From Methylobacillus caricis (GTDB lineage: Bacteria > Pseudomonadota > Gammaproteobacteria > Burkholderiales > Methylophilaceae), in NCBI RefSeq assembly GCF_020532705.1, contig NZ_JAJAVD010000004.1, forward strand, positions 558,001 to 622,000: a stretch of 64,000 nucleotides of DNA, written 5' to 3'. The position numbers and the translations under genes were made by a program. Every line of letters begins with the position of its first letter. Position 1 is the first letter of the stretch. Of this stretch, positions 33,043 to 55,076 are shown one piece after another. Below the pieces are notes generated by a model. It made no database searches. It saw only the letters and a program-made list of their open reading frames with translations, and was not told the DNA's origin.

Positions 33043-33822
33043 TCAGGCAATCAGGCCGCTGGTAGGCGAACTGGGGGAGGCGGAGTAGAGTTTTTTGGGC
33101 ATGCGGCCGGCGAGATAGGCCTCGCGCCCGGCTTCTACAGCTTTTTTCATGGCAGCTGCCATCAGGACCGGATCCCTCGCCGCGGCAATGGCCGTATTCA
33201 TCAACACCCCCTGGCAGCCCAGCTCCATCGCAATGGCGGCATCGGAAGCGGTGCCCACGCCTGCATCCACCAGCACCGGAATGTTGGCATTATCAATAAT
33301 GATCTGCAGGTTCCATGGATTGAGTATGCCCATGCCGGAACCAATGAGCGAGGCCAATGGCATCACGGCGGCACAGCCCAGCTCTTCAAGCTGCTTGGCG
33401 ATAATAGGATCGTCCGAGCAGTAAACCATGACATCGAAGCCATCCTTGACAAGGGTTTCCGCTGCCTTGATGGTTTCCAGCATATTGGGGTAAAGCGTAT
33501 TGGGATCACCCAGCACTTCCAGTTTGACCAGCTTGTGTCCATCCAGCAGTTCACGCGCCAAACGCAGGGTACGCACTGCATCATCCGCTGAGTAACAGCC
33601 AGCGGTGTTAGGCAGGTAGGTAAATTCTTCCGGCGGCAGGAACTCCAGCAATGAAGGCTCGCCAGCGTTCTGGCCGATATTGGTGCGGCGTATCGCCACG
33701 GTGATGATTTCGGCGCCGCTGGCATCTATCGCCGCGCGCGTCTGGGCAAAATCCTTGTACTTTCCTGTCCCCACCAGCAGGCGCGAGTGATAGCTCTTGC
33801 CTGCAATATTCAATGTATCCAT
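33043..33822 (-). CDS. thiG: thiazole synthase
   Basis: A 259-residue TIM-barrel enzyme that makes the thiazole phosphate part of thiamine from deoxyxylulose 5-phosphate, dehydroglycine or iminoglycine, and sulfur from ThiS-thiocarboxylate. [12 protein letters not shown]-like and [34 protein letters not shown] segments, the active lysine in LVKLEVLGD and [30 protein letters not shown] at the C-terminus are all typical. It shares a TAATG stop-start overlap with thiS. Confidence 0.96.
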
Positions 33823-34028
33823 TAACCACCTCCTACTGCGCCGACAATCTCGAGTTTGTCATGGCTGTTTAATACCGCTTCGGCAAATGCGCCGCGCGGG
33901 ACGATTTCACCATTTCGTTCGATTGCCAGACGTTTACCGGTCAGCCCGAGCCTTTCTACAAGCTCGCCAACTGTCAGGCTTTCAACCTCGAACTGCCGTG
34001 GATTTCCGTTGATGGTCAGATGAATCAA
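33822..34028 (-). CDS. thiS: sulfur carrier protein ThiS
   Basis: A 68-residue ubiquitin-like protein starting at TTG ([13 protein letters not shown]) and ending in GAVGGG; the C-terminal Gly-Gly is adenylated and thiocarboxylated to donate sulfur to ThiG. There is no ATG in reach, so the TTG start is the best choice, with AGG about ten bases before it. No TPP riboswitch was recognised upstream. First gene of the thiS-thiG-apaG-mltA operon. Confidence 0.93.
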
Positions 34029-34342
34029 TTGAATACTACCTAGTGAAATACCAAGAATAATTTAGATATCCGGCAAACATCATGCCGCCCCTGTATTTTA
34101 CGTAGGTTCATGGACAATTAGCAAACCAGTTTGGAAAACTCGCTTGCCAAGGCGGCAACTCCCGAATAGCACGGTAATTACCTGACTGATCTCAAATTTC
34201 AATCCTGATAGCCGATAGTAATATCAAATACCCATCGTGCCTGCCGCCCCGCTTGACGGGATATGTCGCGGGATATAGGCTTGCGCAGGTTCTACCTAGC
34301 AATGGCAACATCATAATAAGTGAGATAGACAAGGCAAAGAAA
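34029..34342. other. intergenic region between thiS and the glycosylation island
   Basis: The 314-base gap holds the upstream region of thiS on one side and the sigma-28-type promoter (34192-34218) of the island on the other. An in-frame TTG at 34253 would extend the first island gene into this gap. A short stem (TTGCC...GGCAA, near 34144) has no T-run. No riboswitch, sRNA or repeat was recognised. Confidence 0.5.
34192..34218 (+). promoter_or_regulatory. sigma-28 (FliA) type flagellar promoter
   Basis: TCAAATTT (34192-34199), then exactly 11 bases, then GCCGATAG (34211-34218). The FliA consensus is TAAAGTTT-N11-GCCGATAA; this site matches six of eight bases in the -35 box and seven of eight in the -10 box at the ideal spacing. 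It reads towards the glycosylation island, about 125 bases before the first gene's likely start. It puts at least the first part of the island under late flagellar control. Confidence 0.8.
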
Positions 34343-36001
34343 TTGTCACAGCAGCCAACCACCACCTCTGAAGAGTTATTCCAGGCCGGCCTTGATGCCG
34401 AAGCTGCGCACAATTATCTCGAAGCCCTCTACAAATTCACTGCGGCACTGGAACTTGGCGGCGACCAGATTCCGATTTGGCTCAAGATCGGCAATATTTT
34501 CCTGCGTACCATGAAATACCAGCAAGCCGCAGAAACCATGGAATTTGTGCTTGGCATGGAGCCTGGCAATATCCAGGCAATTTACGGTCTCGCCATTTCA
34601 TATTTCTACCTGGGACGGCTGGAAGAGGCATGCGCTTTCATAGACCATGCAGTGGAAATGCAGCCAGACAACTCCTCATTTGCGCTGGATCGCGCCAATA
34701 TCCACTCCATCGCCCATTCTGATCCACGGAAAAAACTGGCGCTTTACAGAGAGTGGGGAAAGCGTTTTGCCGATCCGCTTGGCGTGAACAGCAAACCCTT
34801 CAACTATGACCGCTCTCCAGACCGCATACTGCGCATCGGCTATGTATCTGGCGATATGCGTGACCATGCCGTGGCTTATTTCATGGAGCCAGTGTTTGCC
34901 CACCACAACCCCAAACAGGTCAACGTGCATGTGTTCTCCACATCCAAGCAACAGGATGCAACAACAGAGCGCCTGAAAAAACTGGTGCCTCATTGGCACG
35001 ATGTGTCCACACTTGATGATGATGCACTTTACCACCTGATACGCCAGCAGAAGATTGACATCCTCATCGACTTGTCTGGCCATACCCAGGGACATCGCCT
35101 CTATGTATTTGCCAGGCGCGCAGCCCCGGTACAAGTCACCTGGCTAGGCTATGTCGGCAGTACCTTGGGGATGAAAGAGATGGATTACCGTCTAACTGAC
35201 TGGGGTATGGATCCTCTCGGCAATGAGCAATTCTATGTAGAAAAGTTATACCGCCTGCACTGCATGGCAAGCTATATTCCGCCTGCCAATACACCGCTGG
35301 AGACAACCCCACCAATGCTACGCGGCAATCCGCCTACGTTGGCATCGTTGAACAGCTCGCGCAAACTGAGCGACCAGGCCTTGCTGGTATGGAAACGTAT
35401 CCTGGAAGCCAGGCCCGAGGTTCAGTTGCTGATCCATGTGCAGGAAACCAACGTTGACGATGCGGTCAACACGATAGAACCTCGCCTGGTCAACCTTGGC
35501 CTACCTCTGGACCGCATTATCGTATCGCCCATCGTGCCCATGGAGGAGTTCATGTCCCGTGGTGATATTGTAGATATCGCGCTCGACAGTTTCCCGATTT
35601 CCGGCGGCACCACCACGTTGCATACATTGTGGATGGGATTACCGATAGTGGCCATGAACGCCACCGAGGCAGTTTCCGCTTCCACCTCTACTACACTGAA
35701 AGGCCTGCGCCTGGAGCAGTGGATAGCGGATAACGAGGAAGACTATATTGCCAAGGTACTACACTTGCTTGACCACCCAGAATTGCTGACAGAACACCGC
35801 AACCAGGCGCGCCATATCATGCAGCAATCCGCCTTGATGAGTTATGCCAACCGTTGCCGCAACCTTGAAACCAGTTATCGTCATATGTGGCTGAATTACT
35901 TGCTGGACACGCCAACATTTCTCATGGTGCAGGCACCATACGCCGATACCTTGCAGCAGTTGCGTGCGACCTATGAGCAATCCCAAGGACAATCCAAATG
36001 A
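34343..36001 (+). CDS. SPINDLY/OGT-type O-linked glycosyltransferase (GT41) with TPR repeats
   Basis: A 552-residue protein (from the TTG at 34343). About residues 1-130 hold TPR repeats (LFQAGLDAEAAHNYLEALYKF, IWLKIGNIFLRTMKYQQAAETM, AIYGLAISYFYLGRLEEACAF). The rest is a GT41 catalytic region: LRIGYVSGDMRDH, ILIDLSGHTQGHRLYVF, APVQVTWLGYVGSTLGMKEMDYRLTD, SLNSSRKLSDQALLVWKRIL and ALDSFPISGGTTTLHTLWMGLPIV. It would add the first sugar to Ser/Thr of a protein. The TTG has AAGG at a good distance; a TTG at 34253 is possible. First gene of the island, behind a flagellar promoter, so flagellin is the likely target. Confidence 0.88.
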   Translation: MSQQPTTTSEELFQAGLDAEAAHNYLEALYKFTAALELGGDQIPIWLKIGNIFLRTMKYQQAAETMEFVLGMEPGNIQAIYGLAISYFYLGRLEEACAFIDHAVEMQPDNSSFALDRANIHSIAHSDPRKKLALYREWGKRFADPLGVNSKPFNYDRSPDRILRIGYVSGDMRDHAVAYFMEPVFAHHNPKQVNVHVFSTSKQQDATTERLKKLVPHWHDVSTLDDDALYHLIRQQKIDILIDLSGHTQGHRLYVFARRAAPVQVTWLGYVGSTLGMKEMDYRLTDWGMDPLGNEQFYVEKLYRLHCMASYIPPANTPLETTPPMLRGNPPTLASLNSSRKLSDQALLVWKRILEARPEVQLLIHVQETNVDDAVNTIEPRLVNLGLPLDRIIVSPIVPMEEFMSRGDIVDIALDSFPISGGTTTLHTLWMGLPIVAMNATEAVSASTSTTLKGLRLEQWIADNEEDYIAKVLHLLDHPELLTEHRNQARHIMQQSALMSYANRCRNLETSYRHMWLNYLLDTPTFLMVQAPYADTLQQLRATYEQSQGQSK

Positions 36002-37161
36002 GTGTGCGCACTGCCATCCCCCTTCTGACTCCGCTCTTGCCAGACCGGGATTCGCTCGCGCCCTATCTCGACCAGCTAGACAGGAACCGCCACTACTCAA
36101 ATTTTGGCCCGCTTAACACCGCACTGGAACAGCGCCTGTCTGGCCTGTTTGAAGCACACAGCAACCACCCCATCCATGTCACCACCACCAGCAGTGCCAC
36201 ACTGGGGCTGGAGCTGGTGCTCAGTAGCCTGGACCTACCTCCAGGCAGCAAGGTGATTGTCCCGGCATTGACTTTTGTTGCATCCCTGACCACCATCATC
36301 CGTGCAGGCTATATCCCGGTCATTGCAGATATAGACCCGGATAGCTGGTTACTCACGCCAGCCATTGCCGCAGAAGCGGCGACTCAAAGCGGCGCAAAAG
36401 CCGTGCTTGCGGTGGCAGCATTTGGCCAGCCGCAAGATACACTGGGCTGGAGTGAATTCCAGCGCCAGTCTGGCCTCAATGTCGTGATTGATGCTGCAGG
36501 TGCATTTGGCAGTCAGTGGGTAGAGGCGCCAGATATTCCCGTGGTTTACAGCATGCATGCCACCAAATCGCTTGCAGCGGGTGAAGGAGGAATGGTGGTC
36601 AGCGGCAACGCCACCGTCAATAACACTGTGCGCCAGCTCAGCAATTTTGGCATCAACCTAGATGCAAACGCAGGCTTCCCGGTCGGCCATCTTTCCTTTG
36701 TCGGCAGCAATGCCAAGCTTTCCGAGTATCATGCCGCGGTCGCCCATGCCAGCCTGGATCAATGGGATGCACAGGCCCGCCTCAGACAACGCATTTATCA
36801 CGACTACCGTGAAGCACTGGTGCAAGCTTGTGGTGCAGACCTGCAATGGCAAGCAGGTATACAGTTGGCAGCGCCAACGATTTTCTGCGTACGCATGGCT
36901 ACAGATGCACGCGACCGCCTGGAAAAAATTTGCCAGCAACGACAAATTGCCACCCGACGCTGGTATCAGCCATTGCTGCACCAGCATGCAGCCAAAGTAG
37001 CGCCCATCATCAAACAACCAACCCCCATCGCTGAAGCAGTGGCGAACGGACTGATTGGCCTGCCGTTTTCTACCTTTATCTCGCGCCAAGACATTACAGA
37101 TGTAGTAGAAGCCGTGAGCCTCGCCACCGTAAATATCGCGCCTATTAATCAATTGAAATGA
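35998..37161 (+). CDS. DegT/DnrJ/EryC1-family sugar aminotransferase (VioA-like)
   Basis: A 387-residue PLP enzyme. It has the DegT pattern (RHYSNFGPLNTALEQRL near the N-terminus, HVTTTSSATLGLELVL, VIVPALTFVASLTTIIRAGYIPVIADID) and the PLP-binding lysine K190 in SMHATKSLAAGEGG. These enzymes convert a 4-keto-6-deoxy nucleotide sugar to the 4-amino sugar; the N-terminus resembles VioA, the dTDP-viosamine aminotransferase. It overlaps the glycosyltransferase gene by four bases (ATGA) and the ACP gene likewise. The amino group made here is the probable acceptor for the acyl group made by the next genes. Confidence 0.9.
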   Translation: MSVRTAIPLLTPLLPDRDSLAPYLDQLDRNRHYSNFGPLNTALEQRLSGLFEAHSNHPIHVTTTSSATLGLELVLSSLDLPPGSKVIVPALTFVASLTTIIRAGYIPVIADIDPDSWLLTPAIAAEAATQSGAKAVLAVAAFGQPQDTLGWSEFQRQSGLNVVIDAAGAFGSQWVEAPDIPVVYSMHATKSLAAGEGGMVVSGNATVNNTVRQLSNFGINLDANAGFPVGHLSFVGSNAKLSEYHAAVAHASLDQWDAQARLRQRIYHDYREALVQACGADLQWQAGIQLAAPTIFCVRMATDARDRLEKICQQRQIATRRWYQPLLHQHAAKVAPIIKQPTPIAEAVANGLIGLPFSTFISRQDITDVVEAVSLATVNIAPINQLK

Positions 37162-37394
37162 GAATGACCATGGATAACATCGATACCTTTATTGAAAAAT
37201 TCATCACTGCAGTGGACTTTCAGGAGGCGGTGGAAATCACCCCTGACACCGTCCTCAAGGACTTGCCGGAATGGGATTCCCTGGCAGCACTGGGCGTGAT
37301 CGTCCTGAGTGATATGGAATACGGCAAAACGATTACTGGCGAACACTTGAAGCAAGTGACCACCGTCAATGACCTCTATCAATTACTGACTTAA
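37158..37394 (+). CDS. acyl carrier protein
   Basis: A 78-residue ACP. The phosphopantetheine serine is in EWDSLAALGVI (S41), with the usual acidic helix before it and the short C-terminal helix (TTVNDLYQLL). Two further ATGs lie at codons 3 and 5. It is not in a fatty-acid operon but is coupled to a sugar aminotransferase and precedes a KAS III gene, which marks it as a dedicated ACP for acyl-sugar synthesis, as in Pseudomonas flagellin glycosylation islands. Confidence 0.9.
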   Translation: MRMTMDNIDTFIEKFITAVDFQEAVEITPDTVLKDLPEWDSLAALGVIVLSDMEYGKTITGEHLKQVTTVNDLYQLLT

Positions 37395-37403
37395 GTTGTC
37401 GAT

Positions 37404-38456
37404 ATGGCCACTTCAACGCTAAAAAATGTACGTTTTGCCGGCATGGCGACCTGCGTGCCCAAGCATGTGGTCCACAACGTCAATGACGTGCCACCGCACC
37501 TGCGTTCCGAGCGTGAGCGACTGGTGCGCAATATCGGCATAGAGACGCGCCGGGTATGCCCGGACTGGCAGTGCTTTTCTGATTTAGCCTATGACGCTGC
37601 CGACAAACTGCTGAACGACCTGCAATGGTCACGCGACGAAGTGGATGCCTTGATTGTAGTAACGCAATCCCCTGACTACCTGGTACCGGCCACGGCCATC
37701 ATCCTCCAGGACAGGCTGGGCCTGGCGCATTCCACGATTGCGTTTGACGTCAACCTGGGCTGTTCGGCCTATCCATTCGCCTTGCAGATTCTGGGCAGCA
37801 TGATTGCTTCAGGAGCCATCAAGAAAGGGCTGATCCTGCTGGGTGACCGATCCAGCTACAAGCACAAGGACCCACTGAAGGATCCCCTATTTTCTGATGC
37901 CGGGACAGCGACCGCGCTGGAATACCAGGAAGGTGCGCCACCCATGTACTTTGACCTCAACAGTGATGGCAGTGGTTGCAAGGCGATCATCGTGCCGGTT
38001 GGCGGTCATAGAAACCCGTTCCAGCTTGAGCATGGCATTGCCCGCAAAGGAGACGATGGCTTCTGGCGCTCAGACCTGGACCTGATCCTGGATGGCCCCG
38101 CCGTGATCAGTTTTTCCACCCAGCGCGTGCCGCCCATGGTGGAAAAGCTGCTTGGATATGCAGATATCCCCAAGGAGGACATCGATTACTTCATCTTCCA
38201 CCAGGCCAACCGCATGATCAACGAAACCATCCGCAAGAAACTGGGGCTGCCTGAAGAAAAGACCCCTTCCACCCTGCGTGAGTTCGGCAATACCAGCGGC
38301 GCCTCATTACCCGTCACCGTCAGCGTACGCCTGCGCGATGCCCTGGTGGCAGGCAAGAAACGTCTGCTCTTCTGCGGTTTTGGTGTAGGCTTGTCCTGGG
38401 GCGGCGCAATTGTGGATGTGGAAGATGCCATCTTCCCCGAACTGATTATTTCATGA
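37404..38456 (+). CDS. 3-oxoacyl-ACP synthase III (KAS III)-like
   Basis: A 350-residue KAS III-type condensing enzyme with the full triad: C120 (NLGCSAYPF), H266 (FHQANRM) and N296 (GNTSGASLP). It would join a short acyl-CoA to malonyl-ACP; with acetyl-CoA the product is acetoacetyl-ACP. Compared with FabH the C-terminal signature is kept (LFCGFGVGLSWG), so it should be active. It starts nine bases after the ACP gene and overlaps the next dehydrogenase gene by four bases. Confidence 0.9.
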   Translation: MATSTLKNVRFAGMATCVPKHVVHNVNDVPPHLRSERERLVRNIGIETRRVCPDWQCFSDLAYDAADKLLNDLQWSRDEVDALIVVTQSPDYLVPATAIILQDRLGLAHSTIAFDVNLGCSAYPFALQILGSMIASGAIKKGLILLGDRSSYKHKDPLKDPLFSDAGTATALEYQEGAPPMYFDLNSDGSGCKAIIVPVGGHRNPFQLEHGIARKGDDGFWRSDLDLILDGPAVISFSTQRVPPMVEKLLGYADIPKEDIDYFIFHQANRMINETIRKKLGLPEEKTPSTLREFGNTSGASLPVTVSVRLRDALVAGKKRLLFCGFGVGLSWGGAIVDVEDAIFPELIIS

Positions 38457-39217
38457 GTGTAGCGCAGGACCCTTTTTCACTCAGCGGCAAGCGTGTGCTG
38501 GTCACGGGAGCTTCTTCCGGCATCGGCCGACAGATTGCCATCACCTGCTCGCAGGTGGGGGCAGAGTTGGTGATCAGCGGGCGCAATCCAGAGCGTTTGC
38601 AGGAAACTAAGGCCGCGCTACAGGGGGAAGACCATCTCGCCATCACGGCAGACTTATCGCAGCAGGAAGGCATAGACCAGCTGGTAGCAGTGGCGGACAC
38701 ACTCCATGGCGTGGTGCATGCAGCCGGCATTTCCAAGTTGGTGCCTTTTCGCCTGATCAACAAACAGCACCTAACCGACATCTTCGACAGCAACACATTT
38801 GCCCCCATGCTGCTGACCAGGGACTTGCTCGTGAAAAAACGCATTGCCCAGAACGGTTCCATCCTCTTCATATCGGCACTGGCCTCCCACAGCGGGGCCG
38901 TGGCAACGGGTGCCTATGCTGCGAGCAAATCGGCCCTGCTAGGCGCAATGCGCAGCCTGGCTATCGAAACCGCTAAACAGGGCATACGTGCCAACTGCAT
39001 TGCACCAGGCTACGTACGTACGCCCATGCTGGATGGGCTTGCCCAAGGCGGCGCCAACATGGATGAACTGATTGCCCGCACGCCGCTGGGCATCGGTGAA
39101 CCAGAAGACATTGCCCATGCCGCCGTGTTTTACCTCTCGGATGCCAGCCGTTGCCTCTCGCGTCACTACACCTTTATCGATGGTGGCTTGAGCATCCCGC
39201 TGGATATCTACGCATGA
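38453..39217 (+). CDS. SDR-family reductase, probable 3-oxoacyl-ACP reductase
   Basis: A 254-residue classical short-chain dehydrogenase: cofactor motif TGASSGIG near the N-terminus, Y155 and K159 in GAYAASKSAL, and FabG-like PGYVRTPML. From its place behind ACP and KAS III it probably reduces the 3-oxoacyl-ACP to 3-hydroxyacyl-ACP. The asparagine of the usual NNAG motif is replaced (HAAGIS). Coupled by ATGA overlaps to genes on both sides. Confidence 0.88.
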   Translation: MSVAQDPFSLSGKRVLVTGASSGIGRQIAITCSQVGAELVISGRNPERLQETKAALQGEDHLAITADLSQQEGIDQLVAVADTLHGVVHAAGISKLVPFRLINKQHLTDIFDSNTFAPMLLTRDLLVKKRIAQNGSILFISALASHSGAVATGAYAASKSALLGAMRSLAIETAKQGIRANCIAPGYVRTPMLDGLAQGGANMDELIARTPLGIGEPEDIAHAAVFYLSDASRCLSRHYTFIDGGLSIPLDIYA

Positions 39218-39813
39218 GCGCCCAGGCATTTTCACTGCAAGACAAGACCATACTGGTCAATGGCATGGCATCCGGCCTGGGACAAGTCATTGCCCAGGCT
39301 TGCAGTCAGCGTGGTGCAAAAGTGCTGCCAGCAGCACAGCCCAGGCAGCCCATCCATGGCCTTGTGCATTGCGTGGATCATGCACTTGAATGCGCAGTGG
39401 CTGACTTGAGCGAAGCAGAGTTGACCAGGCTGTTTCATTCGAATGTGGTACAGCCGGTCATGCTGACACAACAATTGCTGCAAACTGACAGCCTGGCGCC
39501 CAATGCCTCTATCGTGTTCCTGCTCTCCACCGCCGCCCATATGGGTGCCAAGGGGCAGGGGGCTTATGCCGCCAGCAAGGCTGCCTTGCTGGGCATGATC
39601 AAGTGCCTGGCTCTGGAGCAGGCGGCCCAGGGCATACGCGTCAATGGCGTGTCACCACGTGCAGATGAAGCCATCTGGCCTGATGTGGCCAACAGCGTGA
39701 TTTTCCTGTTGGCTGATGCCAGCCGCTGGATCACGGGCACCAGCTTGCTGATCAATGGCGCTGGCTCGGACTCTGCATCCCGCTCGCAGATGGAAACAGG
39801 GGCAGCAGCATGA
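39214..39813 (+). CDS. compact SDR-family protein
   Basis: A 199-residue, shortened relative of the preceding SDR. It keeps a cofactor-binding-like start (NGMASGLGQVI), the active-site pair Y118/K122 (GAYAASKAAL) and the C-terminal ADASRWITGTSLLINGAG. About 50 residues between the first and fourth strands are missing (QRGAKVLPAAQPRQPIHG follows directly), including the cofactor-specificity loop, and the NNAG motif is gone. It may be a second reductase, a partner subunit of its neighbour, or inactive. It overlaps the genes on both sides by four bases, and the start at 39214 rests on that overlap. Confidence 0.8.
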   Translation: MSAQAFSLQDKTILVNGMASGLGQVIAQACSQRGAKVLPAAQPRQPIHGLVHCVDHALECAVADLSEAELTRLFHSNVVQPVMLTQQLLQTDSLAPNASIVFLLSTAAHMGAKGQGAYAASKAALLGMIKCLALEQAAQGIRVNGVSPRADEAIWPDVANSVIFLLADASRWITGTSLLINGAGSDSASRSQMETGAAA

Positions 39814-40445
39814 AAAAACTCTACATCATTGGCGCAGGTGGCTGGGGCAGGGAGGTGCTGATCCTGTTAAGGGACCACGTGGATTGTGGCACAGCCTGGG
39901 ACATTGCCGGCTTCCTCGATACGCGACCGCACATGCTGGATGGTATTGATTGCGGTGCCCGCATCACGGGTGACCCACTGACGCACCAGCCACAGGCAGA
40001 TGACTTGTTCGTATGCGCCATCGGCCTGCCCAATGGCAGGCAATCTTTTGCACAGCCTATCCTCGACAAGGGTGGCCATTTTCTCACCTTGCACGATGCC
40101 CCACTAGGCTGGATCAGTGTGCGTGTGCAGATCGGCCAGGGTGCTATCCTGTCGCACCGCGTGCAGGTGAGCCCTGATGTGCAGATCGGCGATTTCGCCA
40201 ACATCCACAGTGCCAGTATCCTCAGCCATGACGTGCGCATTGGGAACTATGCGCAGATTAGCGCCATGGTGTTTATTGGGGGCGGCGCCCAGATCGGCAA
40301 CAAAGCTATCGTTTATCCCCATGCCACCATCACGCCCGGCATCAAGATAGGTGAGGGAGCCACTGTAGGCGCTGGTGCAGTGGTGATCAAGGATGTGCCA
40401 CCGGGTGCCACCGTATTTGGCAACCCGGCCAAAGTCATTTTCTAG
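39810..40445 (+). CDS. NeuD/PglD-family sugar acyltransferase
   Basis: A 211-residue transferase with a small Rossmann-like N-terminus (KLYIIGAGGWGREVLILL) and a left-handed beta-helix of hexapeptide repeats (VQIGDFANIHSASILSHDVRIGNYAQISAMVFIGGGAQIGNKAIV), ending ATVFGNPAKVI. The histidine in LSHDVRIG sits where PglD has its catalytic base. These enzymes acylate the amino group of 4-amino nucleotide sugars. Its place after ACP, KAS III and reductases suggests that it uses the acyl group made by them rather than only acetyl-CoA; that is inference. Confidence 0.88.
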   Translation: MKKLYIIGAGGWGREVLILLRDHVDCGTAWDIAGFLDTRPHMLDGIDCGARITGDPLTHQPQADDLFVCAIGLPNGRQSFAQPILDKGGHFLTLHDAPLGWISVRVQIGQGAILSHRVQVSPDVQIGDFANIHSASILSHDVRIGNYAQISAMVFIGGGAQIGNKAIVYPHATITPGIKIGEGATVGAGAVVIKDVPPGATVFGNPAKVIF

Positions 40446-40470: not shown

Positions 40471-41619
40471 ATGCAATCGCGCATGCTCCCGAAATACTAC
40501 TTGTCGCAGGAAATCTTTGATCGCGAACAGGCCAAGATTTTCCGCAAGGTCTGGCTGTTTGCAGGACTGAGCTCGCTGGTGTCCGAAAACAACGCCTTCA
40601 TCACGCGCAAGATCGCAGGTATTCCGGTAGTGATCCAGAATTTCAAGGGTGAGCTCAAGGCATTCGAGAATGTCTGCCTGCACCGCAGTGCACCTTTGCA
40701 GCAAGGGTTTTGCGGACGCCGCGCATTGGTCTGCCCCTATCATGCCTGGAGCTATGATGAGAATGGCAGCATCAAGCATATCCCTGATTGTGACGCGCTA
40801 TACCGCTTCAGTGATGCAGAAAAGCAATCGCTCAAACTTCGTGAGTTTGGACTGAAGCAGGTCGGTACGCTGTTGTTCATCAATCTCAGTGATGACCCGA
40901 TGCCACTGGAAGCCCAGTTTTCGCCCAAGTTTATCGAGCTTCTGACAGATAGCTCCAATCAATATGACACGGAAGTCATGGTTACGACCTGGCATGCCAA
41001 GTTCAACTGGAAGCTGGTGTACGAGAACCTGCGTGATCTCAATCATGTGCGCTACATACATCCCAAGAGCCTGGGCCAGGCACTGAAATTCCAGAAACAT
41101 GAAAGTGATATATTCGTTGATGAGGCAGCTGACCCGTTAGCTGACTTGTCACCCCAAGGCCTGCGCACGGAAATGCGCCGCTTCAGCCATGCCGGGGCAG
41201 AAGATGCAGAATATGCCCAATCGCGCCAATACGCCTGGATGAGCATGGTGGAGCCCTGGCAGGGCGTTCACGGCTATTACAATTGGCTGGCATATCCCAA
41301 CCTGCACATTGCCAGCGGCACTGGCGGATACTCGTTTTCCATCGAGAACCATATCCCTGTCTCCCCTGGAGAGACAGACGTCGAAATCTATTACTTCACG
41401 GCAAAAAAGAAGCAGGCTTATGCCACCTCTCATCAAGTGCTGCTCACCCACATGCACTACAGCAAGAAGGTGGTCGGGGAGGATATCGCGATCCTGGAAG
41501 CTGTGCAGTCGACCCTGCACCACCATGCATCCATCCCCAGACAAGGCGCTTATGAGACGCAGAACCGCCTGGTGGAACGTTGGTATACCACCTTGATGGA
41601 GACCGATCATGAGATCTAG
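40471..41619 (+). CDS. Rieske-type ring-hydroxylating oxygenase alpha subunit homologue
   Basis: A 382-residue Rieske non-heme iron oxygenase. The Rieske cluster ligands are C69/H71 and C88/H91 (CLHRSAPLQQGFCGRRALVCPYHAW region), and the mononuclear iron site has D189, H192 and H197 in ENLRDLNHVRYIH. It would hydroxylate or demethylate a substrate, needing a reductase encoded elsewhere. The start has AGGA eight bases upstream. It is unusual for a glycan cluster: it sits between two acyltransferase genes, so the acyl chain or the sugar is the likely target. Confidence 0.88.
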   Translation: MQSRMLPKYYLSQEIFDREQAKIFRKVWLFAGLSSLVSENNAFITRKIAGIPVVIQNFKGELKAFENVCLHRSAPLQQGFCGRRALVCPYHAWSYDENGSIKHIPDCDALYRFSDAEKQSLKLREFGLKQVGTLLFINLSDDPMPLEAQFSPKFIELLTDSSNQYDTEVMVTTWHAKFNWKLVYENLRDLNHVRYIHPKSLGQALKFQKHESDIFVDEAADPLADLSPQGLRTEMRRFSHAGAEDAEYAQSRQYAWMSMVEPWQGVHGYYNWLAYPNLHIASGTGGYSFSIENHIPVSPGETDVEIYYFTAKKKQAYATSHQVLLTHMHYSKKVVGEDIAILEAVQSTLHHHASIPRQGAYETQNRLVERWYTTLMETDHEI

Positions 41620-42232
41620 ATGGATCGTTGGCGGGGGAGAGTACCTGGACCTGGTATATCACGCGTGGAAGCAGGCCAGCCGGGAAGAGGATGTGCAGAA
41701 AATCGAGATTGTGCAAGGCGAGGACTATGAATTCGATTTCTCTATCTTCAAGCAATTGAGCCCCGACAATGGGGATGTCTTCATTGCCGTCGATGACCGC
41801 TTTGGTAACTTCAAGCGCATGGAGTTGTTCCGCGCAGCGCTGGAAAGAGGCTTCGTCATGGCATCTCACATCAGCGCCAGTGCCGATGTGGCAAAAGATG
41901 TAGGAATAGGGAAAAACGTATTCATCGGTCCACGTGCAGTGATCAACCACGGTTGCAAGGTGGAATACAACAGCGTGATCCATGCCGGTGTGCAGCTCGG
42001 AGCCAACAGCCACCTGCGCTCATCCGTGTGGATAGAACCAGGAGTGCAGATTGGCAGCGGGGTCAAGGTGGGGGCACATGCCATCATCCGCACCGGCGCC
42101 ATCGTGCACAGCAATATCAAAATAGGCAAGGCAGCCGAGCTGGGATGGCCACAAATTTACAGCGCCGATGTAGCAGACAAAACCGTATACGACATCCGTT
42201 ACGATGAGCCGATATACGTCTACAACCATTAA
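41609..42232 (+). CDS. second NeuD-like hexapeptide acyltransferase
   Basis: A 207-residue protein with a short N-terminal alpha/beta part (MRSRWIVGGGEYLDLVYHAW) and a left-handed beta-helix (ISASADVAKDVGIGKNVFIGPRAVINHGCKVEYNSVIHAG...VWIEPGVQIGSGVKVGAHAIIRTGAIV). It differs from the first NeuD-like protein in its N-terminus and C-terminus, so it probably acylates another position or sugar. It overlaps the Rieske gene by 11 bases. Confidence 0.82.
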   Translation: MRSRWIVGGGEYLDLVYHAWKQASREEDVQKIEIVQGEDYEFDFSIFKQLSPDNGDVFIAVDDRFGNFKRMELFRAALERGFVMASHISASADVAKDVGIGKNVFIGPRAVINHGCKVEYNSVIHAGVQLGANSHLRSSVWIEPGVQIGSGVKVGAHAIIRTGAIVHSNIKIGKAAELGWPQIYSADVADKTVYDIRYDEPIYVYNH

Positions 42233-42244
42233 GCCATCACTCAC

Positions 42245-44479
42245 ATGATGACCAGCCAAGCCAAGCCACCCCTCATCTCCGTGATCGTACTGGGCTCCCC
42301 AGCGTCCAGTTTTCTCCCACAGGCCCTCGCATCAGTGCATGCGCAAGGGATAGCTGACCTAGAACTCCTGATCGGCAGCAGCGTGACGGAGGCCAGCGGC
42401 AGGTATATTGCCTTTCTGGAAACAGATGGTCTGTTTGAACCGGGGGCATTGCAAGCCCGACTGGATTACCTGCAACAGCACCCTGGCACCAGGCTACTCC
42501 ACAGCCCGGTCAAGCTGATTGATAGGGATGGCAACGATCTGGGCGCAGTGATTTCGCGGCCCAAGGCCATGACATTTGAAGCGGCGATCAACCCCATCCA
42601 TCTCAGTGGCGTGATGATGGAAACCGCCTTGTTGCGAGAGATCGGTGGCATAGAAATAACTGTTGCGGGATGGCATGCGGGGTGGCTGACATTTGCCCGC
42701 GCATTACGCACGGGAGCCATCTCGCAATTCCTTGCCCATGGAGGAGCCAGTCACAGAATCCGGCAAGCCCCCACACTGGCATCGGAACAACAACTTCACA
42801 GGGCGGCCATCCGGGATGTACTCGACTGGATGTATGCCGCATCGCCAGATGCATGCACGGCACCGCAATATAGGCAAGGCCTGAGCAGCCCACCCCTTAC
42901 AGCCGCCAAACGCTTGCGGGACTTATCGTTGTTCACCTGGTGCCTGGTGAGCGGTCATATGCAGGAATGTCGCTTCATGCTGGAAAACGCTGGCCTGGAG
43001 GCATTCCTCAATACCTGGCTGGTGGTCTCACTCAAGGAGGAAATCCAGAGGCAGATCGCCCGCCACTACCAGGTCAACCTGCAAGCGCATCCGGGACAAT
43101 TAGGGGATAACATCAAGGCCAGGATGCTGAGTGATGCGCTTACACTAGGATTACGTGATAAAGCTCCCGCAGTATTGCTGGCCCTGTGTGAATGCCTGGG
43201 AATGCCCTATCCGCAGGAGCAGGCCAGCCATCATGAAGATCATGCTGCTGTTACGTCAGAGACTGCCATACCAGCCGGGCTACGTCCTTTCATATTGATC
43301 ACAACATTTCGCAGCCATGGGCCCGCAACAGAAGTCAGCAACTGTAGAGAAATCCTGCTGGGAAATTGCAGCAACCCTTTGATCTACCAGGTACACGTCC
43401 TGCTCGAAGGGCCGATCGACAAGCTGGAACATGGCCTGCAAGCCTCGCAACTCATCGCGCTACGCCGCTTTGTTGAATCGGGCAAACTGGTGTTCTTGCC
43501 TCTCTCGTCACGCCCGCATTACCTTGCCCTGTTCACATACGCCAATGCCCTGGGGCAGGTCACGGCAGCCGTAGTCAATGCCGACATCGTGCTTACTGCA
43601 CAGGCAGTCCATGACATCCAGCTTGGGCGCCTTGCGGACGGACATCCCGTGTATGCACTCACGCGCTGGAACCGGACAGCAACGGGCGACTTCTTGCAGG
43701 GCATGCAGGCACACCCACCCTGGCCAACATGGCCACCTGATGGACGCAGCCATTTTGAGCGACACTGCCTGTCTTACGACACCTATGTGTTTGATACACC
43801 TGTCACCGTGCCAGATGCCCTGGCTGACATATCTGTTGCCACCTATGGCTGCGATACGGCGCTGGCAGCCATCCTGCGCACGGAAGGCAATGTGGTGAGA
43901 AATCCATGCCTCTCGGTGCGGACCGTACACATTGACGAGAAAATGCGTGACTATATTGGTGAACAGGGCCAACAAGACCTGTGCACCAATATCCAGGCTT
44001 TTGCCAAGGTGATATTGGACAGGTATGGATCGCATCCATCCTATGGCGACAGCTTGCAACAGCTACACTTGTTGAACAAGCAAACGGCATGGCTGGGAGG
44101 CCCGGGTAATGCCGATGTCATGCATACCATGTTCCTCAACCTGGGTGCCAGTCCCTGGATGAAACTGGGGAAATACCCGGCTTTTTCTGCAATTAAAATC
44201 ACTATCCCCCATGGTAACCTTGATCTTGTGGCGGCAGAGCTGGCACAAGTGCCCGATGCCATTGAGCATAATCTGTTCATCCACTGGGAGCTGTACGGCT
44301 TCCCCCAGGGCGGCCATATCGCTGACCTGCTGGTCAACCATCCCCAGTTTGAAGCCATCGGCTACCCACTGTTTCGTTATCAGTGGCAGAGCATGGTGCA
44401 TAGGGATATCGCCAGTGAAGAGGCGCAACAAGTAATAGATAGCCTGGGCCAGATGGTGGCTGAGGTCTTGCACCAATAG
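42245..44479 (+). CDS. large putative glycosyltransferase of unknown specificity
   Basis: A 744-residue protein, not recognised as a named family. Residues 10-160 resemble a shortened GT2 domain (ISVIVLGSPASSFLPQALASVHAQG, then YIAFLETDGLFEPGAL, with ETDG in the DxD position), missing much of the usual nucleotide-binding region. After a helical middle, residues about 345-560 resemble a second transferase-like domain (RPFILITTFRSHG, YALTRWNR, SYDTYVFDTP, YGCDTALAAILRTEGNVVRNPCLSVRTVHID), a pattern seen in some uncharacterised bacterial sugar transferases. A C-terminal part of unknown type follows. Twelve bases after the acyltransferase gene. Confidence 0.65.
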   Translation: MMTSQAKPPLISVIVLGSPASSFLPQALASVHAQGIADLELLIGSSVTEASGRYIAFLETDGLFEPGALQARLDYLQQHPGTRLLHSPVKLIDRDGNDLGAVISRPKAMTFEAAINPIHLSGVMMETALLREIGGIEITVAGWHAGWLTFARALRTGAISQFLAHGGASHRIRQAPTLASEQQLHRAAIRDVLDWMYAASPDACTAPQYRQGLSSPPLTAAKRLRDLSLFTWCLVSGHMQECRFMLENAGLEAFLNTWLVVSLKEEIQRQIARHYQVNLQAHPGQLGDNIKARMLSDALTLGLRDKAPAVLLALCECLGMPYPQEQASHHEDHAAVTSETAIPAGLRPFILITTFRSHGPATEVSNCREILLGNCSNPLIYQVHVLLEGPIDKLEHGLQASQLIALRRFVESGKLVFLPLSSRPHYLALFTYANALGQVTAAVVNADIVLTAQAVHDIQLGRLADGHPVYALTRWNRTATGDFLQGMQAHPPWPTWPPDGRSHFERHCLSYDTYVFDTPVTVPDALADISVATYGCDTALAAILRTEGNVVRNPCLSVRTVHIDEKMRDYIGEQGQQDLCTNIQAFAKVILDRYGSHPSYGDSLQQLHLLNKQTAWLGGPGNADVMHTMFLNLGASPWMKLGKYPAFSAIKITIPHGNLDLVAAELAQVPDAIEHNLFIHWELYGFPQGGHIADLLVNHPQFEAIGYPLFRYQWQSMVHRDIASEEAQQVIDSLGQMVAEVLHQ

Positions 44480-44531
44480 CGGATTTTATTTCTATCGAAT
44501 AACTATGATTGCCGTTTGCCAATAAACTGTC

Positions 44532-46199
44532 ATGAACTCTACTCTTCGTATTCCTGTGCACATGCTCGGCCAATCGGGCTGCCGATTGGACTTTCCCGGC
44601 TGCACGGTCTATGTAGACCCCTATCTCTCGAACTCGGTCAAAGAGCTGGATGCGCCTGACCTGGAACGACTGCTGCCCATCCCCATGCTCCCGGAAGAAG
44701 TCCAGGATGCGGATTGGGTGCTGATCACGCATGCGCACATTGATCATTGCGACCCACACACCTTGCCCAAGCTGGCAGCCGCATCGCCGCAGGCACGGTT
44801 TGTCGGGCCTGCTCCCGTCATTCAGCTACTGGCAGAATGGGGTATTGCTGATGACCGCTTATTGCTTGCCGAGCAAACCTGGAGGGAGTTGAATGCTGGA
44901 GGACTACGCCTACATGCCATCCCGGCAGCGCATCCTGAGCTGGTGCGGGACAAAGCAGGCAACCTGGCCTGTGTGGGCTTTGTGCTGGAGTACGCCGGGC
45001 AAAAGCTCTATGTCGCCGGCGATACCATGGTCAAGCAGGAGATCATTGATGCCCTGACCCAGCTTGCGCCAATACACACTGCGTTCCTGCCGGTGAATGA
45101 ACATAATTTCTTCCGGGGCAGGCGCGGCATCATCGGCAATATGTCGATACGTGAAGCCTTCCAGTTTGGCCAGGAGATTGGCGTGCGCCAGGTGGTAACG
45201 GTGCACTGGGACATGTTTGCCATCAATGCGGTAGACCCGGATGAAATCCGCCTGCTGTACCAGAAGCTGAATCCTGGGTTTGACCTGCTGCTGCGCCCGA
45301 CCAGCATCAATTTGGGCCAGGTACGCGCCAGCATCATCATCCGCACCCTGAACGAAGCCCGGCATCTGGCATCCGTGCTACAAAGCATTGCCAGTCAGGC
45401 ACTCCCCGACTGGGGACATGAAGTGATAGTAGTGGATTCAGGATCTAGCGATGGCACTCTGCAGATTGCCGAGCAGCATGGCTGCCGCATCCTGCATATC
45501 TCGCGTGAGGAGTTCTCGTTTGGTCGCTCGCTGAACCGCGGATGCGACGCTGCCATGGGCGATATCCTGGTCTTCATCAGCGGCCACTGCGTGCCGACTG
45601 ATACGCATTGGCTGCACACGTTATGCCAGCCGATACTGGAACAGCGTGCGGATTATGTCTATGGCCGACAGTTGGGGGGAGACAGCAGCCACTTCAGTGA
45701 GAAGCGTATTTTTGCCAAGTATTTTCCGCCCACCTCGGCGGTGCCGCAAGCCGGTTTTTTCTGCAATAACGCCAATGCCGCGCTATCCCGCAAGGCCTGG
45801 CAACAATACCGCTTTGACGAAGAGCTGACCGGGCTGGAAGATATGGACCTGGCGCAAAAGCTGGCCAGGGATGGTGGCAAGGTGGGGTATATTGCCGAAG
45901 CAGGGGTATACCATCATCATGATGAACACTGGTCGCAAGTGCGGCGGCGCTTTGAGCGCGAGGCGATTGCCTTGCAGAGAATCATGCCGCAACTGCATGT
46001 GGGCCTGCTGGATACCGTACGCTATATCTTCAGCAGCGTCCGCAAGGATGTACGGCAAGCCTGGCGTGATGGTACTAAAATCAGCCTCTTGGATGTTTTC
46101 CGTTACCGGCTGAACCAGTACTGGGGCGCCTATAAAGGCAACCATGAGCACAGGCGCATGTCACGTGCCGAAAAAGAAAAATACTTTTACCCTCAATAA
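44532..46199 (+). CDS. metallo-beta-lactamase-fold hydrolase fused to GT2 glycosyltransferase
   Basis: A 555-residue two-domain protein. Residues 1-260 form a metallo-beta-lactamase-fold domain of the UlaG (ascorbate-6-P lactonase) kind, with the metal motif HAHIDH (H67, H69, D71, H72), AGDTM and VTVHWDMF. Residues 264-555 form a GT2 transferase: ASIIIRTLNEARHLASVLQS, VVDSGSSDGT, FISGHCVPTD, GFFCNNANAAL and LTGLEDMDLAQKLARDGGKVGY. The join is direct (LGQVRASIII), with no stop or frameshift. The hydrolase may act on a lactone or phosphate of the sugar. I know of no described protein with this order. Confidence 0.85.
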   Translation: MNSTLRIPVHMLGQSGCRLDFPGCTVYVDPYLSNSVKELDAPDLERLLPIPMLPEEVQDADWVLITHAHIDHCDPHTLPKLAAASPQARFVGPAPVIQLLAEWGIADDRLLLAEQTWRELNAGGLRLHAIPAAHPELVRDKAGNLACVGFVLEYAGQKLYVAGDTMVKQEIIDALTQLAPIHTAFLPVNEHNFFRGRRGIIGNMSIREAFQFGQEIGVRQVVTVHWDMFAINAVDPDEIRLLYQKLNPGFDLLLRPTSINLGQVRASIIIRTLNEARHLASVLQSIASQALPDWGHEVIVVDSGSSDGTLQIAEQHGCRILHISREEFSFGRSLNRGCDAAMGDILVFISGHCVPTDTHWLHTLCQPILEQRADYVYGRQLGGDSSHFSEKRIFAKYFPPTSAVPQAGFFCNNANAALSRKAWQQYRFDEELTGLEDMDLAQKLARDGGKVGYIAEAGVYHHHDEHWSQVRRRFEREAIALQRIMPQLHVGLLDTVRYIFSSVRKDVRQAWRDGTKISLLDVFRYRLNQYWGAYKGNHEHRRMSRAEKEKYFYPQ

Positions 46200-46214
46200 T
46201 TTTTGTGTGAGCCA

Positions 46215-46928
46215 ATGAACATGAGCAACCCCAAGCCACGCATCGTCGCGTTGCTACCGATGAAAGCCAATAGCGTACGCGTCAAGGGCAAGAATTTCCG
46301 TGAATTCTGCGGAAAGCCGCTGTTCCGCTGGATTCTGGACACATTGCTGTCCGTCGATGAAATTGACGAGATCATCATCAACACCGACGCACGCGATATC
46401 CTTGCCGAGAATGGCCTGGTGGATGGTGGCAAGATCCGCATCCGTGACCGCAAACCCGACATCTGCGGCGACCTGGTCAGCATGAACCTGGTGCTAGCAG
46501 ATGATATCGCCGCTATTCCAGCTGATATCTACCTGATGACCCACACCACCAACCCGCTGATGTCTGCAGACACCATACGCCAGGCACTGGCAGCCTATCA
46601 GGCAAAGCTGGCAAGCGGGGAGGCAGACTCGCTGTTTACCGTGGACAAGATCCAGACGCGCTTCTACCGTGCTGATGGCAGCGCAGTCAACCATGACCCG
46701 GACAACCTGATCCGTACCCAGGACCTGGAACCCTGGTTTGAGGAAAACTCCAATCTTTACCTGTTCACAGCGGAAGGCTTTGCCAAGACCCAGGCCCGTA
46801 TCGGCAAAAAACCGATGATGTATGAAGGACCGCGTATTGAATCGATTGATATCGACGATCAGGAAGACTGGGAGTTTGCCGTGATTGCCACCCATTACCT
46901 GCAAAGCCAGAAAGCGGGTGCCCAATGA
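46215..46928 (+). CDS. acylneuraminate cytidylyltransferase-family protein
   Basis: A 237-residue CMP-sugar synthetase-like enzyme (NeuA/PseF/KdsB superfamily): LLPMKANSVRVKGKNFREFCGKPLF is the nucleotide-binding start, YLMTHTTNPLMSADTIRQAL and EGPRIESIDIDDQEDWEFA follow as in the family. It would activate a sugar acid (a nonulosonate or Kdo-like acid) as CMP-sugar. ATGs at 46215 and 46221 are both possible starts. No nonulosonate synthase (NeuB-like) gene lies in the window, so the acid must be made elsewhere or be of another type. It overlaps the dehydrogenase gene by four bases. Confidence 0.87.
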   Translation: MNMSNPKPRIVALLPMKANSVRVKGKNFREFCGKPLFRWILDTLLSVDEIDEIIINTDARDILAENGLVDGGKIRIRDRKPDICGDLVSMNLVLADDIAAIPADIYLMTHTTNPLMSADTIRQALAAYQAKLASGEADSLFTVDKIQTRFYRADGSAVNHDPDNLIRTQDLEPWFEENSNLYLFTAEGFAKTQARIGKKPMMYEGPRIESIDIDDQEDWEFAVIATHYLQSQKAGAQ

Positions 46929-47863
46929 AAATCCTGGTGACCTGCCCGCCCATGCTGGGCATGATAGACGCCTTCCGTCCACGCTTTGCTCAATATGGCG
47001 TGGAGCTGACCGCGGCCAAGGTGGTGCAGACCTTATCGGTGGAAGAACTGAAAGACATCGTGCCTCAGCATGACGGCTGGATCATCGGCGATGACCCAGC
47101 CACGCGCGAGGTGTTCCTGGCTGGACAGGCGGGCAAGCTGAAGGCTGCCGTCAAATGGGGCATAGGCGTCGATAACGTCGATTTTGCCGCCTGCAAGGAA
47201 CTGGGCATCCCCATTACCAACACCCCCAATATGTTTGGCGGCGAAGTTGCTGACATTGCGGTGGGTTATGTGATTGCCCTGGCGCGCGAAACCTTCCAGA
47301 TTGATGCCGCTGTCAAACAAGGCCAATGGCCCAAGCCGCGCGGCATTTCGCTGGCAGGCAAAACCGTGGCACTGGTCGGCTTTGGGGATATTGGCAAACA
47401 CACTGCCCGCCGCCTGCTGGCCACAGACATGCAAGTGATTGCTTACGACCCCAGCGCCGCTGATGCACCTGAACTGACCTCGGTGCAACGCGCCACCTGG
47501 CCTGAGCGCCTGCCAGAAGCGGACTTTATCGTGATCACCTGCGCGCTGACCGCCAGCAGCCGCCACATGCTGAATGTAGACACACTGGCACAGGCCAAGG
47601 ATGGCGTGAGAATTGTGAACGTCGGACGCGGGCCGATTATTGACGAACCCGCGCTGGAGGCCGCCCTGCAGTCCGGCAAGGTCTATTCCGCCGCGCTGGA
47701 TGTGTTTGAAACGGAGCCATTGCCCTCGACCTCCTCATTGCGTTCCCATCCCCGCTGCATTTTCGGCTCACACAATGCCTCCAACACCGCTGACGCGGTG
47801 GTACGCACCAGTGAAATCGCCATCGACAAGCTGATGGGCTTCCTGGGAGTCAAGACACCATGA
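46925..47863 (+). CDS. D-isomer-specific 2-hydroxyacid dehydrogenase
   Basis: A 312-residue NAD-dependent dehydrogenase: NAD-binding ALVGFGDIGKHTARRL, NVGRGPIIDEPALEAAL and the catalytic histidine in FGSHNASNTADAV. The family interconverts 2-keto and D-2-hydroxy acids, such as hydroxypyruvate and glycerate or 3-phosphoglycerate. Here, between a CMP-sugar synthetase and an SDR, it may act on a keto-acid sugar precursor or a glycerate side group. Overlaps both neighbours by four bases. Confidence 0.88.
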   Translation: MKILVTCPPMLGMIDAFRPRFAQYGVELTAAKVVQTLSVEELKDIVPQHDGWIIGDDPATREVFLAGQAGKLKAAVKWGIGVDNVDFAACKELGIPITNTPNMFGGEVADIAVGYVIALARETFQIDAAVKQGQWPKPRGISLAGKTVALVGFGDIGKHTARRLLATDMQVIAYDPSAADAPELTSVQRATWPERLPEADFIVITCALTASSRHMLNVDTLAQAKDGVRIVNVGRGPIIDEPALEAALQSGKVYSAALDVFETEPLPSTSSLRSHPRCIFGSHNASNTADAVVRTSEIAIDKLMGFLGVKTP

Positions 47864-48618
47864 CTGCCGCGCCGCAGCGCCATGTGCTGATCACGGGAGC
47901 CGCTGGCGGCATCGGCCGTGCGCTGGTGGAGACTTTCCACAACGATGGCTACCACGTGATTGCCACCGATATCGGCCCACAGCCTGCATGGTTAGCCAGT
48001 GATGACACCTGGTTGAGTGCAGATCTGGTGCGCGTAGTAAGGGAGCCGGACTACGCCGCCAACTTTCTTGTGGAAGTACGCACAGCGTTACAGCAATCCG
48101 CCTTGCACAGCCTGGTGAACAATGCCGCCATCCAGATCCTGGCCGGTACCGCTGAACTGAGTGATGCGGATTGGCAAACCACGCTGGATGTCAACCTGAG
48201 TGCCCCATTTCTGCTGATCAAACACCTGTTGCCAGAACTGGAAGCAGCGCGGGGGGCGGTGGTCAATATCAGCAGCATTCATGCAGCACAAACCAAACAG
48301 CGTTTCGTGGCCTATGCCACCAGCAAGGCCGCCTTGAGTGGCATGACCCGCGCCCTGGCCGTGGACCTGGGTGAGCGCATCCGGGTCAACGCGATAGAAC
48401 CTGCCGCCATCGATACCGAAATGTTGAAGGCAGGTTTCAGCGACAACCCCGAAGGACTGGTTGCATTACAGCAATACCACCCGGTAGGCCATATCGGGCA
48501 GCAGGAAGAAGTGGCCAGACTGGCGCTGATGTTGTGCAGCGACATCTTGCCCTTTGCCAATGGCAGCTGCATTGCATTGGATGGTGGTATTCGTGGCAGG
48601 TTGCATGACCCGGATTGA
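47860..48618 (+). CDS. SDR-family oxidoreductase
   Basis: A 252-residue classical SDR: TGAAGGIGRALVE at the N-terminus, NNAAIQI, and Y152/K156 in YATSKAALSGM, with intact C-terminal AIEPAAIDTEML and IALDGGIRG. It is more complete than the two SDRs further upstream. An SDR next to a CMP-sugar synthetase recalls the ptmA-ptmB pair of Campylobacter legionaminic acid genes. Coupled to the dehydrogenase by an ATGA overlap. Confidence 0.87.
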   Translation: MTAAPQRHVLITGAAGGIGRALVETFHNDGYHVIATDIGPQPAWLASDDTWLSADLVRVVREPDYAANFLVEVRTALQQSALHSLVNNAAIQILAGTAELSDADWQTTLDVNLSAPFLLIKHLLPELEAARGAVVNISSIHAAQTKQRFVAYATSKAALSGMTRALAVDLGERIRVNAIEPAAIDTEMLKAGFSDNPEGLVALQQYHPVGHIGQQEEVARLALMLCSDILPFANGSCIALDGGIRGRLHDPD

Positions 48619-48627
48619 GGCCTTGAA

Positions 48628-50592: not shown

Positions 50593-50659
50593 ATGCGCCG
50601 CTCAATCAAGGCAGGAACAGCTTTTCATCTGAGTCTATCCGGCAAGAGGCACTAAACGC

Positions 50660-53434: not shown

Positions 53435-53458
53435 GCTGATAGTCGGGCGCTATAAACC

Positions 53459-54277
53459 ATGATGACACTGAACCATATGCCACCCGCAGCCCGGAAAGAA
53501 CCTTCTGTGCGTGAGCCCTACCCTGTATGCGCCTCTCCATACACAGCCTATGTGAGGGATGTGCCTACACGCAGGACCAAGAGGCAGATCGCCTTGTTTT
53601 CTTGCCTGGAATGCCAGAGTTTCTGGAATCCCTCCGGCTATGTCGAAGATGTAGCCCAACTTGAAAAAGACCTGGCCTGGGGCTTGTCGGTTGAAAGCAG
53701 GAACAAGGCAGCCGCTGTCACCCTGTTCAACACACTATTGTCCCTGGGCGTTGAGTTTCAATCCATTGCCGAAATAGGCTGTGGCATAGACACATTATTG
53801 TCGGTCGCCAAGCAGCTCGGATATGAAACCATAGGGTTTGATGTCAATGCACTTGCCATTGAGCATGCCACTGTGGCGCATGGGCTGGAAGCCTACTCTG
53901 TGCTGTGGTCAGCTGAAACACCCACCAGGAAAATTGATTTGTACCTGTCGATATCGGTGCTGGAACACATCGAACGACCAAGGGAGTTGATTAGGAATCT
54001 CTGTGAAGCCGCGCTTAGGCATCATGCCACACTATTTATCAGTGTGCCCTTCCTGGAAAAAGCACACTGGAAGTTTATGCTGGCACCTGACCCATTTACA
54101 CCCGGCACCCCATTTTTTGACAATGACGTGCACGTCACCCATTTTTCCATCAAAGGCCTGATGCAGGCGATGGCCGATTTTGGCTGCCACAACACGACTT
54201 ACATCCAGGCCGGATTATGGAATGGCGTTTTGTTCACCCCGCCCCAAGCTGATCACTCCGGGACAACCAGTGCATAG
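53459..54277 (+). CDS. class I SAM-dependent methyltransferase
   Basis: A 272-residue methyltransferase with SAM-binding motif EIGCGIDTLLSVAKQLGY (E105 onward), the acidic strand end GFDVN, and SISVLEHIERP. The N-terminal 60 residues (CASPYTAYVR, SCLECQSFW) contain three cysteines, CxxC included, perhaps a zinc site as in some sugar methyltransferases. Probably O- or N-methylates a sugar of the island's glycan. Starts 24 bases after the fusion protein gene. Confidence 0.82.
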   Translation: MMTLNHMPPAARKEPSVREPYPVCASPYTAYVRDVPTRRTKRQIALFSCLECQSFWNPSGYVEDVAQLEKDLAWGLSVESRNKAAAVTLFNTLLSLGVEFQSIAEIGCGIDTLLSVAKQLGYETIGFDVNALAIEHATVAHGLEAYSVLWSAETPTRKIDLYLSISVLEHIERPRELIRNLCEAALRHHATLFISVPFLEKAHWKFMLAPDPFTPGTPFFDNDVHVTHFSIKGLMQAMADFGCHNTTYIQAGLWNGVLFTPPQADHSGTTSA

Positions 54278-54359
54278 CAGAAGGACAGATCAGCCAAGGC
54301 CAGCTCAAGATTGCATATGAAATATATAAGGCGATAAATGATGGCACAGTTGAAAATTC

Positions 54360-55073: not shown

Positions 55074-55076
55074 GCC

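Follow-up and report, generated by a model that had tools for sequence, protein, structure and literature searches.

The window analysed here is a stretch of 64,000 nucleotides (C4:558001-622000) belonging to the 2.97-Mb, six-contig genome of Methylobacillus caricis, a methanol-consuming bacterium; statements made for the whole genome are based on pattern searches and selected stretches. An operon spanning positions 34343-60489 adjoins the divergent thiSG genes on contig C4, and two putative promoters in tandem, P1 and P2, precede its first gene. The features of the locus are the following, in window coordinates.

33043-33822, minus strand: thiG (Pfam).
33822-34028, minus strand: thiS-like gene, read from the sequence; divergent neighbour, upstream of and overlapping thiG.
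34092-34127, minus strand: conserved block TATTTTACGTAGGTT...AATTAGCAAA (TATTTTACGTAGGTT-N8-AATTAGCAAAC), near-invariant in all species aligned.
34192-34218, plus strand: P1, candidate FliA (sigma-28)-type promoter; -35 TCAAATTT (34192-34199), N11, -10 GCCGATAG (34211-34218).
34253-34281, plus strand: P2, putative sigma-70-type promoter; TTGACG (34253-34258), N17, TAGGCT (34276-34281).
34343-36001, plus strand: g01, TPR plus GT41 glycosyltransferase with an FlmG-like layout (Pfam PF13844 and TPR).
35998-37161, plus strand: g02, DegT-type sugar aminotransferase with a predicted VioA/OrfA-like role (PF01041; the best NCBIfam model, DesI, stays below its cut-off).
37158-37394, plus strand: g03, acyl carrier protein (ACP; ORF with a DSL motif), likely start at 37170.
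37404-38456, plus strand: g04, 3-oxoacyl-ACP synthase III (KASIII), VioS/OrfC-like (PF08541/PF08545); the basis of the query for the neighbourhood search.
38453-39217, plus strand: g05, 3-oxoacyl-ACP reductase-like SDR (PF13561).
39211-39813, plus strand: g06, shortened SDR (PF13561).
39810-40445, plus strand: g07, acyltransferase of the NeuD/PglB/VioB family (TIGR03570, 170.9 bits, cut-off 160.8).
40471-41619, plus strand: g08, Rieske oxygenase (PF00355, PF00848).
41609-42232, plus strand: g09, hexapeptide-repeat transferase (PF00132).
42245-56801, plus strand: g10-g19, variable middle (Pfam), with a 744-aa protein, an MBL-GT2 fusion, a cytidylyltransferase, a 2-hydroxyacid dehydrogenase, an SDR, two GNGPSLKG-domain proteins, a GT4-FkbM fusion and two methyltransferases.
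56959-60489, plus strand: g20, 1176-aa glycosyltransferase with two GT2 domains in tandem (PF00535 twice), similar to VioT/OrfN in its size and position.

The upstream region of the island was compared with that of ten relatives, namely M. gramineus (G005) and M. arboreus (G001), G210 from another genus, G004, G002, G003 and the Methylovorus group (G020, G021, G205 and G206); the closest named relatives are Methylobacillus. Matches to g01-g08 exist in each of the six flagellated relatives with which the comparison began, g08 being weak in G002 and G021, where g09 is missing. The variable middle is largely present in M. gramineus and M. arboreus and mostly absent in the other relatives. The true start of g01 is the TTG at 34343, a TTG/GTG start conserved in nine species (GTG in G021), and the nearest solved chain to its product is 5djs, a TPR protein, followed by SPINDLY and OGT.

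Several genes of the window are of interest in themselves. g06 (39211-39813) is shorter than its homologues and may be degenerate. The proteins encoded at 48628-50592 and 55077-56801 share a GNGPSLKG..D domain joined to different partners, with a weak PF01973 match in the first, and neither matches NCBIfam. The fusion of a metallo-beta-lactamase fold to a GT2 glycosyltransferase (44532-46199) is 82-89% identical in two congeners, and at 50660-53434 a GT4-like domain is fused to two FkbM methyltransferase domains. At 1232-2248, the window also encodes a protein with a Tle1-like phospholipase domain (PF09994, a T6SS effector family).

Judged by its gene content, the operon probably belongs to the known viosamine/PAK kind of flagellin-glycosylation islands, and the find is mostly a new example of it. 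With the P. syringae viosamine island (vioA, vioM, vioT, vioS, vioB, vioR, acp) and the P. aeruginosa PAK island (orfA-orfN) it has in common an aminotransferase, an ACP, a KASIII, a reductase, a VioB-family acyltransferase and a transferase of about 1175 residues, all encoded in one operon. In P. syringae, flagellin does not acquire its modified sugar without the vio genes that encode the aminotransferase, the reductase, the acyltransferase and the transferase; the ACP and KASIII genes share the island, and VioT measures 1173 aa (PMC3927599). Homologues of g20 at 55-64% are found in flgL-linked Pseudomonas-type islands. Unlike these systems, the present island lies at thiSG, is headed by a TPR-GT41 gene and includes a Rieske oxygenase gene as well as a long variable middle part; the likeness is one of gene content, not of PAK/Pta sequences. 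Its location away from flagellar genes need not exclude it from this kind, since the viosamine island of Pta 6605 is also flanked by non-flagellar genes (PMC3927599) and a flagellar-side location is thus not strictly defining. The first gene brings in a further known system, FlmG of Caulobacter crescentus, a TPR plus GT-B protein that binds flagellins through its TPR part and glycosylates them (PMC7591256). g01 resembles FlmG in its N-terminal TPR, its C-terminal GT-B transferase and its length (552 aa, against 596 in FlmG), a likeness of layout rather than of directly compared sequences. FlmG uses pseudaminic acid and flmG is controlled by CtrA, whereas no pseudaminic-acid synthase is visible in the present island. 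The literature searched held no description of flagellin glycosylation in Methylobacillus.

The genomic context of related islands also points to flagellin. Among 80 homologous loci, defined as genome loci with a close KASIII and all carrying the ACP gene, 43 have flagellar genes at most 10 kb from the island (fliC in 38, fliD in 32, fliS in 31); the other 37 show none in the stretch available, which for some of them is due to the end of the contig. The Pseudomonadaceae locus L149 shows the order flgK-flgL-island-fliC, which is the layout of the PAK island. The six Methylophilaceae loci all lack flagellar genes over this distance, so that the island is detached from them here; in M. caricis the flagellar cluster lies on contig C1. 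The island KASIII occurs in 10 of 187 family genomes, all ten with flagellin, and the island in none of the 104 flagellin-less genomes (Fisher 2e-4, a value that ignores relatedness). The Methylobacillus congener G003, a single loss event, has neither flagellin nor FlhA and has lost g02-g20, its g01 being followed by CsbD and deaminase-like genes. This g01 (L090:5480-7009) still reads as an open frame, and the P2-type promoter before it is intact, but it keeps only 136 of the 202 residues that are invariant in the other eight, against 86-99% kept in the others; its conserved catalytic motifs have decayed, with DLSGHTxGH, SGDMRxH and SGGTTTLH altered. Because of the co-occurrence, the joint loss and decay in G003 and the FlmG layout, flagellin is the likely acceptor independently of P1, and the island products likely modify it. 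The earlier note had named flagellin the most likely acceptor on the strength of the promoter; support for this acceptor comes from the genes in and around such islands and from their joint occurrence and loss with flagellin, not from the promoter alone.

The candidate promoter P1 reads, in full, TCAAATTT-CAATCCTGATA-GCCGATAG and points towards the island. It agrees with the FliA consensus TAAAGTTT-N11-GCCGATAA at 13 of 16 positions with a spacing of exactly 11, and its sequence, coordinates, strand, spacing and match are exactly as the earlier note had given them, as is its place before the first gene of an island in which Pfam finds no flagellar structural gene. Matches with at most three mismatches number two in the window, where 0.30 are expected per 64 kb, and 25 in the whole genome, where a reversed control pattern gives 29; there is no genome-wide excess over this control, and on mismatch counting alone P1 does not rise above chance at that scale. 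The second match of the window (57431-57457, minus strand), antisense inside g20, was rejected as a chance occurrence. P1 itself was first favoured as a chance match in view of the missing genome-wide excess, its three departures from the consensus and the poor agreement of the relatives that were aligned at the outset, a reading that was overturned by an E. coli matrix and by the site in G210.

This matrix was built from 22 FliA sites determined by ChIP-seq (Table 2 of PMC4183435). P1 scores 19.0 on it, inside the leave-one-out range of the training sites (5.7-26.4), and scores of at least 17 occur twice in 567 kb (strand-bases) of non-flagellar sequence, that is, 0.0012 times per 330 nt on one strand. 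With a genus matrix P1 scores 10.8, below all 19 flagellar FliA training sites of the genus (17.7-28.8), which have TAAA in the -35 box where P1 has TCAA. Sites bound by FliA in vivo in E. coli include TCAA-type -35 boxes, as in modABC, flgKL and fliL, and several strong E. coli sites carry at least three mismatches (PMC4183435). The modABC (TCAACTTC-N11-GCCGATAT) and flgKL (TCAAGTCC-N11-GCCGATAA) promoters are like P1 in boxes, spacing and TCAA -35 (PMC4183435); they differ from it in that their binding by FliA was observed in vivo, while P1 is a candidate read from the sequence, and in that P1 has a second, sigma-70-type promoter downstream. Since it falls within the range of E. coli sites and yet below all those of the genus, P1 is plausible as a weak FliA promoter, and probably functional as such.

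The genome encodes its own FliA (NF005413, 319 bits, cut-off 201), along with FlgM, FlhD, FlgK and FliC. Its flagellin gene fliC, before which the earlier note proposed to look for the motif of P1, is preceded by a FliA-type site, as are flgM and flgK, but with a TAAA -35 rather than TCAA. Six of seven flagellated species share identical fliC promoter boxes; in G020 one base differs. Upstream of flhD, three FliA-like sites stand in a row (L028:15649-15906; C1:1735648-1735905), and similar clusters precede flhD in several relatives, which suggests a possible feedback of FliA on this master regulator.

Boxes of the P1 type are found at the aligned place upstream of the g01 orthologue in three of the ten relatives: M. 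gramineus (TCAAATTC-N11-ACCGATAG, score 14.5), M. arboreus (TCAACATT-N11-ACCGATAT, 17.1) and G210 (TCAAATTT-N11-ACCGATAT, 17.2). Compared with G210, 14 of the 16 box positions are identical against 44 of 103 in the flanks (binomial 3e-4); for M. arboreus the figures are 12/16 and 50/103 (binomial 0.03), and M. gramineus is too closely related to be informative. Both tests were made after the site had been pointed out. P1 is absent or broken in G003 and in G004, G002, G020, G021, G205 and G206, the last six being flagellated and retaining the core island. Outside the Methylophilaceae, FliA-like sites precede g01 in two of about 33 homologous islands, so islands of this type are not generally under FliA control.

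P2 is kept with its exact N17 spacing in nine of the ten relatives (all but G020), six of which lack P1. Its consensus over the relatives is TTGAC[GT]/TAG[GT]CT, with TTGACT in M. arboreus and G210 and TAGTCT in G205; 11-12 of its 12 box positions are kept in M. gramineus, M. arboreus, G210 and G004, and the spacer has diverged in G003, G002 and G210. The pattern TTGAC-N18-TAGGCT has two exact matches genome-wide and none for the reversed control. An E. coli-style consensus promoter scan missed P2, whose -10 TAGGCT would rank as poor in E. coli; it is its conservation that marks P2 as a putative sigma-70-type promoter, one that the earlier note had overlooked. The TTG of its -35 box doubles as the start of a mechanical ORF at 34253. 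A transcript from P1 would have a 5' leader of about 118 nt, and one from P2 a leader of about 55 nt. On the other side of the intergenic region, the conserved block between thiS and the island is probably the divergent thiSG promoter, which a consensus scan reads as TTGCTA-N18-TAAAAT (34124-34095, minus strand). The earlier note had placed P1 at the head of the island and tied the latter to late flagellar expression. The tie is likely to hold in this lineage, where P1 is probably real, although the site is weak and missing in flagellated relatives; a role as sole or primary head is contradicted, because P1 scores below the other FliA promoters of the genome, is patchy among relatives, being absent in six flagellated ones, and lies upstream of the more widely kept P2.

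The reading that we favour, and consider probable, is that the operon would be a viosamine/PAK-kind flagellin-glycosylation island at thiSG served by both promoters. P2, as a housekeeping promoter, would secure a basal supply, to which P1, as a weak FliA promoter, would add late-flagellar expression. The enzymes would produce an acylated amino-deoxy sugar, with g02 as the aminotransferase, g03-g06 providing the acyl chain, g07 transferring it, and g08 and g09 tailoring the sugar further. Flagellin would be bound by g01 while still in the cytoplasm, and g01, g20 and the remaining transferases would assemble the glycan prior to export. We infer here FliA dependence, P2 activity, sugar chemistry and flagellin modification, with the enzyme families as the only guide to the structure of the sugar. 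We also suggest, tentatively and as a possibility short of probable, that P1 acts as a FliA tether of the detached island, placed ahead of the housekeeping promoter after the island had become separated from the flagellar genes. Such a tether would be evolving fast: some Methylophilaceae retain it, and close relatives that are flagellated and have the core island have lost it.

Two alternatives concern P1. It might be unused, the flagellin-glycosylation island being driven by P2 only, as in the relatives devoid of P1. The retention of P2 in nine of ten relatives against three for P1, the departure of P1 from the genus FliA consensus and the lack of a genome-wide excess of FliA-like matches all speak for this; the presence of both boxes, again exactly 11 nt apart, in two more Methylobacillus species and another genus, amid diverged flanks, and the low background of high-scoring sites make it rather unlikely. 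The CTCAAATTT-N11-RCCGATA block could also serve a different regulator, or belong to P2 as an upstream element, its FliA likeness being accidental, as conservation around P1 extends a few bases past the boxes (ATCTCAA, TAA-AT) and all four P1-type sites have TCAA instead of TAAA. We deem this very improbable, for the spacing and both boxes fit FliA, ACCGATA starts three of the four -10 boxes, as in the fliC promoters of the genus, and no inverted repeat was found at the block.

An alternative of another kind leaves the promoters aside and takes lipopolysaccharide, exopolysaccharide or pili as the acceptor, the flagellar association being indirect. The generic glycan enzymes of the island, its distance from the flagellar cluster (C4 versus C1) and the homologous loci that are not beside flagellar genes would suit such an acceptor. 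The fliC, fliD and fliS neighbours in other taxa, the co-occurrence of island and flagellin in the family, the co-loss and decay in G003 and the FlmG-like first gene leave it improbable, and flagellin modification remains the reading that we prefer. G003, flagellum-less with its island deleted and its g01 decayed, amounts to a natural knock-out that points to flagellin, and the locus would allow one to test how a modification island that lies apart from the flagellar cluster stays coordinated with the synthesis of flagellin.
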